In this document: in pieces, positions 28,691 to 34,219 of the stretch
Numbering within the stretch: the stretch's first letter is position 1
Layout of the letters: every line of letters begins with the position of its first letter
Source of the DNA: Microlunatus sp. Gsoil 973
GTDB lineage: Bacteria > Actinomycetota > Actinomycetes > Propionibacteriales > Propionibacteriaceae
Length of the DNA stretch: 64,000 nt
Direction: 5' to 3'
Assembly: GCF_009707365.1 (NCBI RefSeq)
Contig: NZ_CP046122.1
Coordinates: 2,356,001-2,420,000, forward strand
Position numbers and translations under genes: made by a program
Notes under the pieces: model-generated
The model's database searches: none
What the model was told of the DNA's origin: nothing
Seen by the model: the letters and a program-made list of their open reading frames with translations, nothing else

Positions 28691-29553
28691 TGGCGACCGC
28701 CCGGACGCTGACCCGATCGCGCAACCCGTTCCGACGGACGGGCTCGGCTCTGATCATCTACGCACTGCTGATCTTCGGTGCGCTGATCATCGTGACGCCG
28801 TTCTTGTTGAGCTTCGTCACGGCACTCAAGACGCCGGAACAGTTCTCCAACACCTCGACGCTGAGTCTGCCCGCACCACTGTCCTGGCAGAACTTCGGGG
28901 AACTGTTCGGCGCCCAGCACAACTTCATCTCACCGATCGCCGTCACGGTGCAGATGACCGTTGTGATCCTGGTCGTCCAGCTGAGCTGTTCCATCCTGGC
29001 CGCGTACGCGTTCGCCCGGGTCAGCTTCCCGGGTCGGGACATCATCTTCTGGGCCTATCTGGCAACGATGATGATCCCGGCGGTGACCACCATCGTCCCG
29101 CTGTACGGGATGTTCACCGCCGCCGGGCTGCGGAACACCTTCTGGGCCCTGGTGCTGCCCACACTGTTCGGCTCGCCGTACGCGATCTTCCTGCTCCGTG
29201 AATACTTCCGGGGCGTCCCCGATGATCTGGAGGCGGCCGCCCTAATCGACGGTTGCGGCACGCTGCGGGTGCTCTGGTACGTGGTCATCCCTTATTCGCG
29301 ACCGATAATCGCAACCCTGACTGTGATCACCGTCGTCAGTCACTGGAACAACTTCCTGTGGCCGCGGGTGATCACCTCCGGACCGGACTGGGCCGTGCTG
29401 ACGGTCGCGACGGCCGGCCTGCAGAGCCAGTACAACGGCAACTGGACGTTGGTGATGGCCGCCACCAGCGTCGCCCTGCTCCCGCTGATCGTGATCTATT
29501 TGATCTTCCAACGCCAGATCGTCAACTCGATCTCGATCGGCGGATTCAAGTGA
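28690..29553 (+). CDS. Sugar ABC transporter permease (MalG-type)
   Basis: A 287-residue CUT1 permease with six membrane segments. The EAA loop is LEAAALIDGCGTLRVLWYVV, and the C-terminus ends SISIGGFK, a MalG-type ending (the family usually ends GxKG or similar). ATG 28690 shares its A with the stop of the preceding permease gene (TGATG), so the two are translated together. It should pair with the upstream permease to form the membrane channel. Confidence 0.93.
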   Translation: MATARTLTRSRNPFRRTGSALIIYALLIFGALIIVTPFLLSFVTALKTPEQFSNTSTLSLPAPLSWQNFGELFGAQHNFISPIAVTVQMTVVILVVQLSCSILAAYAFARVSFPGRDIIFWAYLATMMIPAVTTIVPLYGMFTAAGLRNTFWALVLPTLFGSPYAIFLLREYFRGVPDDLEAAALIDGCGTLRVLWYVVIPYSRPIIATLTVITVVSHWNNFLWPRVITSGPDWAVLTVATAGLQSQYNGNWTLVMAATSVALLPLIVIYLIFQRQIVNSISIGGFK

Positions 29554-29664
29554 AGCGTCGGATGGGCCCCATGCGACACTCGGGGCACTCCCCGGCACCA
29601 CGGCCCGTCCGGGCACCACGTCCCCATCCCTGGCAAGCACTTCTGGTCACAAAGGTAGGAAACG

Positions 29665-31044
29665 ATGACTGATTCCACGTCCTTCAGCCGACGGAAGGCC
29701 CTGGCACTGCTCGGTGCCGGCGCGGGCGGCGCAGTGCTCGCGGCCTGCTCACCCAATCAGCAACGGGAGCAGAACACGAGCGGCGGCGGGAGCACCGGAG
29801 CGGCCAAGACGACCATCGGCTTCCGGCTCTGGGACGATCAGGTCGCCAAGGCGTACGAGACGTCCTTCGCCGAGTTCACCAAGCAGAACCCGGACATCAC
29901 GGTCAAGATCAATCTCGTTCCGTGGCAGAACTACTGGGACCAACTGCCGGTCGATGTCGGGAGCGGCACCATCGACGACCTGTTCTGGACCAACTCGCTG
30001 AACTACCAGCAGTACGCCGACGCCGGCAAGATCAGCGACGTCGGCACTCTGCTGGGCGCTGTGGACGACGCCTGGCAGAAGTCGGTCGTCCAGCAGTACA
30101 CCTACCAGGACAAGCTCTGGGGTGTGCCGCAGATCGCCGATGCCAACGGCATCTTCTACAACAAGTCGATCCTGTCCGACAGCAACCCGCGGCTGCTGTC
30201 CGGGATCGGCAAGCTGCGGTGGCGGCCGGGCGGCGGTTCCGGTGACACGCTGCTGCCGGCGCTCCGGCAACTGACCGTTGACAGCAACGGCAAGACTGCG
30301 GCCGATCCGGGCTTCGATCCGAAGAAGATCAAGACCTACGGCTACAACGCCGCCTACGACCTACAGGCGATCTACTTCCCATTCATCGGGTCCAACGGCG
30401 GACGGTGGCAGGCCGACGGATCGAACAAGTTCGTCTTCGGCAGCGACCCGAAGACCGTCGAGGCGTTCAGCTACATCGTCGACCTGATCAACAAGCACCA
30501 CGTCGCGCCGTCCGCGGCCGACACGAACGACAACGGCGACTTCAGCCGCGACCAGTTCCTGCAGGGTCACATGGCGATCTTCCAGTCCGGCACCTACAAC
30601 CTGGCCAACGTCGCCGACGGTGCCAAGTTCGACTGGGCCATCGCGCGGAACCCGGCCGGGGCGGCGGGCAGCTTCGGGGTTGCCAGCGGAGTGATCGTGG
30701 CCGCGAGTGCCGCCACCAAGAGCGCCGACGCGGTGAAGAAGCTGCTGACCTGGCTCGGGTCTGCCGACGGCAACAAGTTCATCGGCGAGTCCGGCTCGGC
30801 GCTGCCGGCGGTGACCACGGCCCAGTCGTCCTGGGTGGACTTCTGGAAGGCCAAGAACGTCGACGTTCAGCCGTTCGTCGACGCCGCCGCGGGCAAAACG
30901 ATCCAGGCACCACGCGGCACCGGGGGCAGCGGATCCTCCGACGCGTACGATCCGATCCTCAAGGAGATCTTCCTGGGCCGTACCCCGGTCAAATCCGGTC
31001 TGGCCGAGGCCGAACAGAAGGCGAACGCCGCGATCGGCAAGTAG
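29665..31044 (+). CDS. Sugar-binding lipoprotein of the ABC importer
   Basis: A 459-residue family 1 binding protein. The signal has SRRKALALLG, a near-Tat motif with two arginines, a hydrophobic stretch and a lipobox LAAC with Cys28. The mature protein has the fold markers WDDQVAKAYETSFAEFTKQN, YYNK-like FYNKSIL and the QDKLWGVPQIADANG hinge typical of maltose-type binding proteins. ATG 29665 has AGGAAACG upstream. It is 111 bp after the second permease gene and completes the operon. The stop is followed within a few bases by the 19-bp repeat array. Confidence 0.93.
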   Translation: MTDSTSFSRRKALALLGAGAGGAVLAACSPNQQREQNTSGGGSTGAAKTTIGFRLWDDQVAKAYETSFAEFTKQNPDITVKINLVPWQNYWDQLPVDVGSGTIDDLFWTNSLNYQQYADAGKISDVGTLLGAVDDAWQKSVVQQYTYQDKLWGVPQIADANGIFYNKSILSDSNPRLLSGIGKLRWRPGGGSGDTLLPALRQLTVDSNGKTAADPGFDPKKIKTYGYNAAYDLQAIYFPFIGSNGGRWQADGSNKFVFGSDPKTVEAFSYIVDLINKHHVAPSAADTNDNGDFSRDQFLQGHMAIFQSGTYNLANVADGAKFDWAIARNPAGAAGSFGVASGVIVAASAATKSADAVKKLLTWLGSADGNKFIGESGSALPAVTTAQSSWVDFWKAKNVDVQPFVDAAAGKTIQAPRGTGGSGSSDAYDPILKEIFLGRTPVKSGLAEAEQKANAAIGK

Positions 31045-31046
31045 TC

Positions 31047-31828
31047 CCCGCACCAGTTGCCCGTCCCCTCCCTGCGCCAGTTCCCCGCCCGCACCACTTC
31101 CTCGGCCCCGCACCAGTTCGCCGGCCCCGCACCAGTTCGCCCGCCCCCGCACCAGTTCGCCCGCCCCCGCACCAGTTGGTCGGCCCCGCACCAGTTCGCC
31201 AGGCGCCGCACCAGTTGGTCGGCCCCGCACCAGCTGCAACGGGTGCGCCGCCGAGTAGGTGGTGCGGGATCGGGCAAGGGGCGCGTCGTCGAGCAAGCGG
31301 TGCGAAGCCACGGCCGTACGCGGAGCCGCCGACGCCGGTTCCCCGCACCAGTTGGTCGGCGCCGCACCAGTTCGCCGGCGCCGCACCAGTTCGCCGGCGC
31401 CGCACCGGCTGCAACGGGTGCGCCGCCGAGCAGGTGGTGCGGGATCGAGCAAGGGGCGCGTCGTCGAGCAGGCGGTGCGAAGCCACGGCCGTACGCGGAA
31501 GCCGCTGACGCCAGTGCCGCAGCAGTTGGTCGGCCCCGCACCAGTTGGTCGGCCACGCACCAGTTGGTCGGCCCCGCACCAGTTGGTCGGCCCCGCACCA
31601 GCTGCAACGGGTGCGCCGTCGAGCAAGCGGTGCGCCGTCGAGCAAGCGGTGCGCCGTCGAGCAAGCGGTGCGGCGTCAAGCAAGCGGTGCGGCGTCAAGC
31701 AAGCGGTGCGCCGTCGAGCAAGCGGTGCGCCGTCGAGCAAGCGGTGCGCCGTCGAGCAAGCGGTGCGCCGTCGAGCAAGCGGTGCGCCGTCGAGCAAGCG
31801 GTGCGCCGTCGAGCAAGCGGTGCGAAGC
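31047..31828. repeat. Three-module array of 19-bp repeats in both orientations
   Basis: The whole space between the binding protein stop and the phosphoesterase gene is filled by 19-bp units. F units have the form CACCAGTTGGTCGGCCCCG or CACCAGTTCGCCGGCGCCG; R units have the form GTGCGCCGTCGAGCAAGCG. The reverse complement of an R unit aligns with an F unit at about 13-14 of 19 positions, so R units are diverged inverted copies. Each of three modules runs F units, then a GCTGCAACGG link (31233, 31408, 31601), then R units (3, 3 and 11 copies), then GTGCGAAGC (31300, 31475, 31820). Units have no spacers. The region has no stop codons in most frames, which creates spurious long frames on both strands. 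Confidence 0.92.
31611..31819 (+). repeat. Tandem run of eleven 19-bp R units
   Basis: Eleven head-to-tail copies of a 19-bp unit start at 31611, 31630, 31649 and so on to 31801. Nine read GTGCGCCGTCGAGCAAGCG; the copies at 31668 and 31687 share the variant GTGCGGCGTCAAGCAAGCG. The near identity points to recent expansion by slippage or unequal exchange, whereas the F units and the older R units in modules 1 and 2 are more diverged. Confidence 0.95.
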
Positions 31829-31937
31829 TGCCGGCGCCCGCGCCGGTGCGTTCGGCCTCGGTGTTCATCGACAACTTTCTCCAACCGCCTCGTGTCAACC
31901 CTTGCCCGGATCGGTCGATCTCCGTGAGACTCGGACG

Positions 31938-32789
31938 GTGACCGATCCGATCTTCAGCTTCGGCCTGTTGGCCGACGTCCAGTACGCCGACGACGACACC
32001 CACGAGGGGCTCGATCGTCATTTCCGGGCGTCGATCAGCAAGTTGCAGAAGGCCGTCGCGGAGTTCAACCGACATGATCTTGCCTTCGTCGTCCATCTGG
32101 GCGACCTGGTCGATCACGATCTGGAGAACGCGACACCGGTGCTGGAGATCATGGCGGGTTCGGTCGCACCCGTCCACCAGGTGCTCGGCAACCATGACTT
32201 CGCCTCGTCGTGGTCACCGACAGGGCGGAGCGATTCGGCTGCGTTGATCAAGGCGTACGGAATGCAGGCTGCCTACTACGCGATCGCTCAGCCGGGATGG
32301 CGGTTCCTGGTCCTGGACACCAATGAGGTCGGCGTCATCGCGCACCCGCCCGGCAGCACCGAGGCGTCCGAGGGTGAGGAACTGCTGGCGCGCGTGAAGA
32401 GCCAGGGACGGCGCAACGCCAACCCCTGGAACGGCACGATCGGCCGGGCGCAGCGAAGCTGGCTGGCCGACCAGCTGGAACAGGCGGCAGCCGACGGCCT
32501 GCGCGCCGCGATCTTCGCCCACCATCCGGTCTTCCCCGATCATCACGACAACCTGCTCGATGATCATGAACTCCTGGATTGGCTGGCCGGCTTCGATGCA
32601 CTGAAAGTCTGGTTCGGCGGCCACCAGCATGCCGGTGGGTACGGCCTCTACCGCGACGTCCATGTCCTGACCCTCAATGCGGTGGTGCAGTCGACGACCA
32701 ACGCCTTTGCGGTTGCCAACGTCCACCAGGACCGGATCGTCATCACCGGGCACGGCAGGCAACCGTCCTACGAACTGGTGATCAACTGA
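31938..32789 (+). CDS. Calcineurin-like metallophosphoesterase (ADPRibase-Mn-like)
   Basis: A 283-residue phosphoesterase with all metal-binding motifs: DVQY in LLADVQYAD, GDLVDHD, GNHD in VLGNHDFA, AHHP in IFAHHPVFP and the C-terminal GGHQHAGGYG. The combination resembles Mn-dependent ADP-ribose/CDP-alcohol diphosphatases. It is cytoplasmic, having no signal peptide. GTG 31938 is chosen as the first start after the repeat array that gives the family N-terminus; the frame remains open into the repeats, but that part is repeat sequence. It is followed 90 bp later by a secreted endonuclease/phosphatase-fold protein. Confidence 0.88.
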   Translation: MTDPIFSFGLLADVQYADDDTHEGLDRHFRASISKLQKAVAEFNRHDLAFVVHLGDLVDHDLENATPVLEIMAGSVAPVHQVLGNHDFASSWSPTGRSDSAALIKAYGMQAAYYAIAQPGWRFLVLDTNEVGVIAHPPGSTEASEGEELLARVKSQGRRNANPWNGTIGRAQRSWLADQLEQAAADGLRAAIFAHHPVFPDHHDNLLDDHELLDWLAGFDALKVWFGGHQHAGGYGLYRDVHVLTLNAVVQSTTNAFAVANVHQDRIVITGHGRQPSYELVIN

Positions 32790-32878
32790 TCATCCGACTG
32801 ACCATCCGACGGCCCAATCCGTCCCCCGGACCCCATCCCCTGATTCGATCCCGAGTCCATTCCCCGGAAGGAACGCAG

Positions 32879-33712
32879 ATGTTTCGCAGATTGTTCTCGG
32901 CACTCGCCCTCACCACTGCCATGCTGACGGTGATGACCACAGCGACCATGACTGGCACAGCGAACGCCGCAGCGTCGTCGACACGAGTCTTCGACGTGAT
33001 GAGCTTCAACATCCACCACGCCGAAGGAACCGACGGCGTTCTGGACGTCGCCCGGATCGCCGACGTGATCCGGAACAGCGGCGCCGACGTGGTCGGATTG
33101 CAGGAGGTCGATCGTCACTACTCCGACCGCAGCGAGTGGGCTGACCAGCCCGCGGAACTGGCCGCGCTGTTGGGCTGGCACGTGGTCTTCGGCGCGAACA
33201 TCGACCAGGACCCTCCGGTCGGCAGCACCGACCGGATCCAGTACGGCACCGCGATCCTCTCCCGGTACGCCATCACGTCCTGGGACAACACCTACCTCTA
33301 CAACACGCCCGGCCAGGAGCAGCGAGGGCTCCTTCATGCCCGACTCGACGTCCGCGGTGCCTCGGTGGACTTCTACTGCACACATCTGGCGGCCAGTTCA
33401 CAGACCGACCGCCTGCAACAGGCATCCCAGATCGTCGATCTGATCGGCGACCAGGATCCCGCAATCCTCGTCGGGGATATGAACGCCACCCCGGATGCAC
33501 CGGAGATCAAGACCCTCTCCACGGCGTTCGACGACGCCTGGATCGCGGCGGGACAGGGACCGGACAGCACCTACCCGTCGGAAGCCCCGGCCAAGCGCAT
33601 CGACATGATCTTCGAAACCCCGAGCGTCAGGTCGACCCAGACCCGGGGCTGGCGCAACCAACCGGTCGCTTCCGATCATCTGCCGGTGCTCACTCGAGTC
33701 GTCGTCGGCTGA
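32879..33712 (+). CDS. Secreted endonuclease/exonuclease/phosphatase-family protein
   Basis: A 277-residue EEP-fold hydrolase. A Sec signal peptide with a positively charged start, hydrophobic core LFSALALTTAMLTVM and AxA-type end (TANAAA) is present. The EEP motifs are MSFNIHHAEG, VVGLQEVDRHY (metal-binding Glu), GDMNATPDAPE and the C-terminal ASDHLPVLTRVVV (catalytic His). It is an extracellular phosphodiesterase or nuclease, substrate unknown. ATG 32879 is preceded by GGAAGGAA. It lies 89 bp after the metallophosphoesterase gene in the same direction and may be co-transcribed. Confidence 0.9.
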   Translation: MFRRLFSALALTTAMLTVMTTATMTGTANAAASSTRVFDVMSFNIHHAEGTDGVLDVARIADVIRNSGADVVGLQEVDRHYSDRSEWADQPAELAALLGWHVVFGANIDQDPPVGSTDRIQYGTAILSRYAITSWDNTYLYNTPGQEQRGLLHARLDVRGASVDFYCTHLAASSQTDRLQQASQIVDLIGDQDPAILVGDMNATPDAPEIKTLSTAFDDAWIAAGQGPDSTYPSEAPAKRIDMIFETPSVRSTQTRGWRNQPVASDHLPVLTRVVVG

Positions 33713-33730
33713 CCCTGGACGCTGTTGGGT

Positions 33731-34219
33731 TCAGACAAGATCGTCAACCGACAACACGCGCACCGAGTTCGCCGTCGCCAGATGGATCGGCCACACCCTC
33801 AGGTCGAACGCCTTCTGCCGGCGCGCCCGGTCCACGGCCGCCAGTATGGCGTTGGCACGCTGCCGGTCGGCCGCGGTGACGCTCCCCGGGCCGGGCCGGC
33901 TCAACGCCAGGGCGACACTCGCCGCACCCATCGATGCCGGTTCAGCCAGGATGATCATCAGGTTCTGCAGCGCCGCCGGCTCGAGTGCCTGCGGAAGATC
34001 ATCGATCGGCACGACAACCGGGAGTTGGCGGCCGTCGGCGTCGTACCAGACGATCCACAGTGTTGTCCGCTGGAACCCGCCGTCGCCCAGCAGGGAACGC
34101 CACCGACGCCGGACGTCCTCGTCGTTGCGGACAGGCGGCGCCTCCTCAGGACGTTGCAGGGGTGGGACGGGATCGGGGTCGGGCCGGCGACGGGGACCAG
34201 GCCGAGCAGAATGCGTCAT
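33731..34219 (-). CDS. Conserved hypothetical protein of actinobacterial type
   Basis: A 162-residue protein with an arginine and proline-rich N-terminal tail and a folded part with TTLWIVWYDADGRQLPVVVP, followed by two helices. No catalytic motif or membrane segment is visible; it looks like a cytoplasmic globular protein. The composition and the regular alternation of hydrophobic positions support it being a real gene, as does the position, converging on the nuclease gene. ATG 34219 is taken as start. I do not recognise a function. Confidence 0.65.
   Translation of the reverse strand: MTHSARPGPRRRPDPDPVPPLQRPEEAPPVRNDEDVRRRWRSLLGDGGFQRTTLWIVWYDADGRQLPVVVPIDDLPQALEPAALQNLMIILAEPASMGAASVALALSRPGPGSVTAADRQRANAILAAVDRARRQKAFDLRVWPIHLATANSVRVLSVDDLV

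Follow-up and report, generated by a model that had tools for sequence, protein, structure and literature searches.

In the available text of two reports, a REPtron consists of a tnpA_REP (RAYT) gene flanked by its cognate repetitive extragenic palindromes (REPs) (PMC6006769, PMC8266576). How REP-like palindromes spread is an open question: the portion of a further study available to us reports palindromes without a known dedicated transposase, the dispersed CGTC REPs, together with TIRtrons, in which Y1 enzyme genes are flanked by terminal inverted repeats, and the word 'Actinobacteria' does not occur in its main text (PMC3733652). Here we analyse a 64,000-nucleotide stretch of the chromosome of Microlunatus sp. 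Gsoil 973 (the window; NZ_CP046122.1, positions 2,356,001–2,420,000), in which an intergenic array of 19-bp units occupies window positions 31047–31824. This array probably arose by tandem over-amplification of an intergenic palindrome that occurs dispersed in the genome and forms one half of a nuclease–palindrome pair. By analogy, the best reading appears to be a REPtron-like system whose nuclease is of another, unrelated family, which would point to an enzyme–repeat pair of a kind not yet described in bacteria; our searches of open-licence PMC papers turned up no account of this pairing.

As in a REPtron, a single gene for a DNA-processing enzyme is flanked by palindromes that are also dispersed between other genes, often after them, and each enzyme paralogue has its own palindrome class. 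An enzyme gene flanked by its own dispersed class occurs at both paralogues of the window's own genome (G000, one contig of 4,913,910 bases), at two paralogues of M. elymi (G006) and in three further genomes of the genus (G010, G014 and G018), but not in G019 with the CGCACC class described below. Unlike in a REPtron, the enzyme has a predicted Vsr/EDxHD fold rather than that of a Y1/HuH tyrosine transposase, and the palindromes are about 60–76 bp long with nested hexamers 19–20 bp apart, those of G000 growing into arrays. The RAYT-type transposase family PF01797 (Y1_Tnp) was found in 5 of 14 control genomes and in none of the 20 genomes of the genus, and on this absence we rejected mobilisation by a RAYT or IS200 enzyme. 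CGTC REPs and TIRtrons resemble our elements as dispersed palindromes without a known transposase and, in other genera, as enzyme genes between inverted repeats; they differ in the CGTC tag of the former and the Y1 enzymes of the latter.

A dispersed palindrome family in the window genome

The window array comprises three modules, each made of forward units (F), a dyad centre CGCACC-N10-GGTGCG and reverse units (R), a plan that we write F(n)R(m). A first-pass annotation made from the letters of the window had described a three-module array of 19-bp repeats with inverted second halves, and Tandem Repeats Finder (TRF) confirms this layout. We make two corrections: a single 19-bp word, read in opposite orientations, makes up both the F and the R units, and what had been taken as a separate link between them is part of the dyad centre. 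The expectation that the same modular order would recur elsewhere proved right, as G000 has at least 41 intergenic loci of this kind, the window array among them. CGCACC-N10-GGTGCG occurs 102 times in this genome (control, 1), with TGCA in the middle of 75 centres, another T..A in 25 (GTACAC in 24 of these) and neither in 2. A scan using the hexamers only returned 60 clusters with 73 F-to-R switches, 71 of them of 16 bp and 2 of 35 bp; F stood first in 59 of the 60 clusters and R last in 54. We read 71 exact centres, in 45 arrays, three of which are short elements and one probably a chance centre; at 4 further centres the adjoining unit on one side was too degenerate for our extension rule. 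The consensus common to F and reverse-complemented R units is CGCACCAGTTGCTCGGC(G/C)C, with CGCACC its most conserved part (232 and 230 units).

No array among the 45 overlaps a gene predicted by our own codon-based caller by more than 20 bp, and their gene contexts are tandem (24), convergent (13) or divergent (8). Their placement along the chromosome does not differ from uniform, with no regular spacing (gap coefficient of variation 0.77; Kolmogorov–Smirnov p 0.96). The elements, their spacing and their dispersal are directly seen, and they fall into two classes. The A class consists of arrays, mostly with CTGCAG centres and with 19-bp units as feet, at no fewer than 41 loci, that of the window included; the S class consists of single palindromes of about 60–68 bp with GTACAC centres and mostly TTGC/GCAA feet. 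Both have nested CGCACC/GGTGCG pairs 19 bp apart, and by reading neither carries the GTAG (or GTGG) foot tag of REPs. Of the short elements, 26 that we read, 25 of the S class and one A-like, lie between tandem (12), convergent (11) or divergent (2) genes or inside a predicted open reading frame (ORF; 1). In the genus as a whole, the basic element is a palindrome of about 60–76 bp with two nested hexamer pairs 19–20 bp apart and a central dyad that is often NNNTGCANNN or GTACAC.

Within the window array, R units complement F units at 11.8, 12.0 and 12.7 of 19 positions on average in the three modules, slightly below the 13–14 that had been estimated by hand. The complementarity itself is real: shuffled units give 6.5, 6.3 and 5.8, and the observed values exceed the maximum of 2000 shuffles. 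The first-pass annotation had named complementarity no better than that of shuffled sequence as grounds for dropping its claim, and those grounds therefore fall away. It had also predicted three long hairpins. Module RNAs do fold more stably than dinucleotide shuffles (z −3.6, −3.5 and −5.7), but hairpins as a conserved feature of the arrays are unsupported. Within a module, the two arms pair at 12.05 of 19 positions against 12.61 for arms of different loci (s.d. 0.096; 63 modules, four short or chance centres left out), indicating that unit sequence, rather than hairpin pairing, has been kept in the arrays. The unequal lengths of the arms and the position of 8 of 45 arrays between divergent genes also speak against conserved hairpins. 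Perfect pairing within array modules, such as that at window 31518–31824, seems to be avoided or selected against.

Palindrome classes bracket paralogues of a predicted nuclease

Cross-species comparison of the genes that adjoin elements identified a gene for a protein of about 300 amino acids, a predicted nuclease; in G000 and in G006 alike, this gene sits downstream of rpoC with an element on each side. The first-pass annotation had no view of the nuclease genes that copies of its palindrome enclose. Its interpretation is supported in part: its 'mobile non-coding repeat' and 'protein-binding array' come near the best reading. G000 encodes two close relatives of the protein (at least 44% identity), and elements bracket both. 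Among 223 genes of 500–1600 bp that lie in the 45 G000 sequences read for arrays, the A-class nuclease gene alone has a centre less than about 350 bp away at each end.

We scored the flanks of each gene against 65 A modules and 23 S elements, leaving out the bracketing copies; shuffled flanks score 19. The flanks of the gene at G000 4662282–4663187 score 83 against S elements and 24–26 against A modules, and those of the gene at 3464726–3465604 score 66–70 against A modules and 26–32 against S elements. The window array scores as A class (79 versus 38), and its cognate nuclease is probably the one encoded at G000 3464726–3465604. In G006, one paralogue is bracketed by the TGCA class (61–70 versus 20–22) and a second by an AAATTT class (61–71 versus 23, with 3 such elements compared), and a third matches neither class, its flanks carrying different repeats. 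The comparisons in the two genomes excluded bracketing copies and one A-like element. Bracketing and a one-to-one pairing of paralogue with palindrome class are thus directly observed in two genomes. The second G006 class, with centre CGAAATTTCG, is seen at L214 (G006:C1:2741686-2745561), L119, L124 and L128; its own paralogue is 57% identical to the query and independent of the TGCA class.

In relatives that have few CGCACC elements the bracketing hexamers differ. A homologue is bracketed by GGCACA-N10-TGTGCC in G014, by CACACC-N10-GGTGTG in G010 (one side being a variant) and by CGCGCC-N10-GGCGCG in G018. A degenerate pattern that takes in all of these matches 17 (control, 2), 15 (1) and 11 (4) places in these three genomes, respectively; among the places listed, 12, 6 and 5 have the exact hexamers on both sides, the others being variants or unrelated. 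In G017 the brackets themselves make up two of the three matches of the degenerate pattern, and homologues in G003, G004 and G008 have yet other bracket palindromes. In addition to the G010 homologue with CACACC, that genome holds a further one (46%) at L286 (G010:C1:810800-814700), bracketed by CGCACC centres (at most 1 mismatch) at 1385 and 2429.

The order element–gene–element is kept at the rpoC locus of G000 and G006. At the 3′ end of rpoC, G012 has one element and a decayed nuclease remnant (L154, 2060–2480), and G019 has an element without the gene (L141, 1836–2110). These remnants fit gain and loss and suggest an old locus that is losing its parts.

Predicted fold of the partner protein

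The protein is predicted to comprise an AbiEi-antitoxin-like N-terminal part and a C-terminal Vsr/EDxHD domain. Its top Foldseek match is the AbiEi antitoxin of a type IV toxin–antitoxin system (PDB 6y8q), from which it differs in that a nuclease domain follows; the AbiEi name carried by many homologues reflects the N-terminal part only. AbiEi_4 exceeds its Pfam cut-off in 1 of 10 members scanned, and NCBIfam returned no match for 5 proteins. At the G000 rpoC locus no AbiEii toxin gene is adjacent, the neighbours being rpoC and a gene that by reading is amidophosphoribosyltransferase-like. The best match of the predicted nuclease domain, a Vsr-like fold, is I-Bth0305I, an EDxHD homing endonuclease according to the available part of its description (PDB 3r3p; PMC3943268). 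Residues E191, D223, E234, D236, E258, K259, R261 and E262 are invariant across 62 aligned sequences; in this putative EDxHD set the E, D and E-F-D-G residues are invariant, and K240 and Y241 nearly or fully so. I-Bth0305I is encoded in a phage intron. Unlike it, the genes described here are free-standing and chromosomal, encode an AbiEi-like N-terminal part and are accompanied by dispersed copies of the presumed site.

Palindromes and nuclease genes in relatives

Among 20 genomes of the genus, CGCACC-N10-GGTGCG is frequent in G000 (102), G011 (48), G019 (35), G006 (29), G012 (13), G003 (12) and G002 (11), with controls of 0–3 in these seven; the other 13 genomes have 0–4 (controls, 0–7). The TGCA centre type occurs in 5 of 391 genomes of the order, four in the genus and one, with a single occurrence, of another genus. 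S-like palindromes in relatives are species-specific in sequence, and G002 has, by reading, short F(n)R(m) runs of a 20-bp unit of other sequence. Most palindrome sites in relatives adjoin genes other than those in G000. M. endophyticus has no element above chance in a 13.4-kb locus that holds orthologues of both neighbours of the window array; these lie about 3.4 kb apart with other genes between them, the downstream one being 68% identical.

A shared flank word of at least 14 bp is present at 59 of 77 homologue loci: 22 of 30 in the genus, 23 of 27 in other genera (best matches) and 14 of 20 further genus loci. The last set was picked by hand from the remaining matches, and its distant paralogues share a word in 9 of 13 cases. 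Control genes share such a word in 4 of 121 cases, in 10 of 412 in a larger set, and in 7 of 87 with both flanks intergenic by at least 80 bp; the larger set left out two nuclease loci, and 48 genes with an element in the flank, counted apart, share none. Of the 31 bracket palindromes that reach 44 bp or more in length, 22 contain a direct repeat of 5 bases or longer, including 19 of 20 from the genus, all at 19- or 20-bp spacing. Shuffled palindromes have such a repeat in 33% of cases, 11% of those at 19 or 20; bracket palindromes of the same locus or of related species are not independent.

Nuclease homologues are present in 260 of 394 Actinomycetes genomes; those that carry a name are mostly annotated as AbiEi antitoxin or hypothetical protein. 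Plasmid carriage was set aside, with 5 matches in 72,556 plasmid records, all below 60% identity, as was phage carriage, with a homologue in no phage record. In two other families (f20 and f36), and at loci L226, L230–L232, L237 and L242 from other Actinomycetes genera, the gene is enclosed by inverted repeats at least about 50 bp long that start near TGATCA(C/T)GTT, a layout resembling that of a small single-gene transposon.

Proposed mechanism and competing explanations

In the mechanism we propose, the N-terminal part would read the hexamer units, a dimer would bind them across about 60 bp, and the nuclease domain would cut near the dyad. Repair of the break would copy and homogenise palindromes between intergenic sites, much as RAYTs are thought to spread REPs, and slippage of units or unequal repair would duplicate arm units into F(n)R(m) arrays, including that of the window. 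We extend this tentatively, as a proposal that may well be wrong, to a wide class of selfish or domesticated elements in Actinomycetes: homing-endonuclease-like proteins, each matched to a palindrome of its own, some 60 bp long, at which it would bind and cut, the breaks then spreading that palindrome through the genome. This class would be a convergent counterpart of the RAYT–REP system, and F(n)R(m) arrays would be what it yields when amplification runs away. If so, a second, unrelated enzyme family would be tied to its own palindromes, making the pairing idea testable outside RAYTs. Given how widespread its homologues are and how they are named, a common uncharacterised family would therefore gain a candidate substrate and a testable activity, the palindromes being long candidate target sites.

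Several observations weigh against a nuclease–palindrome pair. CGCACC centres (at most 1 mismatch) lie on both sides at just 6 of the 30 best genus loci, in G000 (two), G006, G011, G002 and G003, and on one side at 1 more. G019, despite its 35 CGCACC-N10-GGTGCG sites, has none of its 6 homologues bracketed by them. In G012, CGCACC does not bracket the intact homologue (L197), and only the decayed remnant adjoins an element. The shared flank word is missing at 8 of 30 genus loci and 18 of 77 overall. Bracket palindromes of other genera have the internal repeat in 3 of 11 cases, two at 19 bp from the same locus and one at 17. A sample of 400 kb from the 4.48 Mb of G483, a genome outside the genus, taken as 20 pieces of 20 kb, yielded the two bracketing copies plus one centre-like match, against 4 in the reversed control. 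Only 7 of 103 flanking genes in five relatives match a gene beside a G000 element, which fits mobility but shows no empty site. As for the protein, Foldseek by itself gives I-Bth0305I no better than E 0.011; DUF559 matches fall under the Pfam cut-off; a PDB profile search gave two weak unrelated matches and no nuclease, and a PDB search by sequence gave none. Binding, cleavage and mobility are steps that we infer, none of them demonstrated.

The palindromes might instead terminate transcription in both directions or act as hairpins that stabilise RNA 3′ ends; slippage would have expanded them in G000, and the nuclease gene would simply use them at its ends. A predicted stop codon does lie no more than 50 bp from 17 of 21 short forms in G006 (10 between convergent, 8 between tandem and 2 between divergent genes, 1 in an ORF) and from 19 of 26 in the S class. 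Their arms covary in G006 (10.0 versus 8.06 of 13, n = 18, p 0.0002; AAATTT-class elements left out of the relatives' test) and in the S class (9.88 versus 9.03 of 13, p 0.0006), weakly in G011 (n = 5) and G012 (n = 9) and not in G019 (n = 11) or G002 (n = 7). Arrays also prefer convergent over divergent gaps relative to other gaps of at least 60 bp (Fisher p 0.004), and their RNA folds are stable. However, a terminator does not require a fixed hexamer at 19–20-bp steps, nor need it match a single nuclease paralogue both 5′ and 3′ of the gene; moreover, 8 of 45 arrays lie between divergent genes and array arms pair worse than random ones. We regard this explanation as unlikely.

Less likely still, the protein could be an AbiEi-type transcription factor with the palindromes as operators and an incidental nuclease domain. 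The AbiEi_4 and 6y8q matches point this way, and dyad symmetry and unit conservation resemble those of protein-binding sites. The invariance of the nuclease-like residues in all 62 aligned sequences argues against it, as do the many sites 3′ of genes, including a copy downstream of the nuclease gene itself. A neutral satellite, arising by replication slippage on a GC-rich palindrome with no partner protein, is very improbable. Slippage is suggested for the tandem part by unequal arm lengths (for example, 13 and 4, or 3 and 13) and by the near identity of adjacent R units. Against a mere satellite stand the constant order of F before R, the 16-bp switch and the conserved hexamer, seen at 41 or more loci and across several species, as well as the palindromes that bracket a nuclease gene.

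Anatomy and surroundings of the window array

Degenerate leading F-type units (31047–31089) begin directly behind the upstream gene's stop codon. Module 1 (31090–31304) has its dyad centre, CGCACC-AGCTGCAACG-GGTGCG, at 31226–31247; module 2 (31344–31479) has CGCACC-GGCTGCAACG-GGTGCG at 31401–31422; and module 3 (31518–31824) has CGCACC-AGCTGCAACG-GGTGCG at 31594–31615, followed by 11 further near-identical R units. The spacer between modules 1 and 2 (31305–31343) has a near copy between modules 2 and 3, in keeping with the period of 175 bp that TRF detects across 31158–31582. TRF also delimits 19-bp F arrays at 31046–31237, 31343–31406 and 31517–31601 and R arrays at 31417–31479 and 31610–31824. 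The 11 R units of module 3 and the 175-bp module copies look like recent tandem amplification. The link GCTGCAACGG (31233, 31408 and 31601) and cap GTGCGAAGC (31300, 31475 and 31820) of the first-pass annotation stand where it had put them and nowhere else on the window's plus strand, and its R copy numbers of 3, 3 and 11 equal the R steps past each centre.

The view that the array is neither a CRISPR nor a plain minisatellite is borne out: the 19-bp units adjoin each other and reverse their orientation at the dyad, with no unique spacers between direct repeats. Although ORFs cross the array, the codon-based caller predicts no gene there, and we discarded a coding role. Rfam gave no match up to E 1 in window 29000–34000. 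The downstream gene (31938–32789, plus strand) presumably encodes a metallophosphoesterase-like protein, judging by a motif. The upstream gene (29665–31044, plus strand), by reading a sugar ABC transporter binding protein, has three short weak matches besides itself when used as a DNA query against its own genome, and the nearest named relative of its product is in M. endophyticus (81%).
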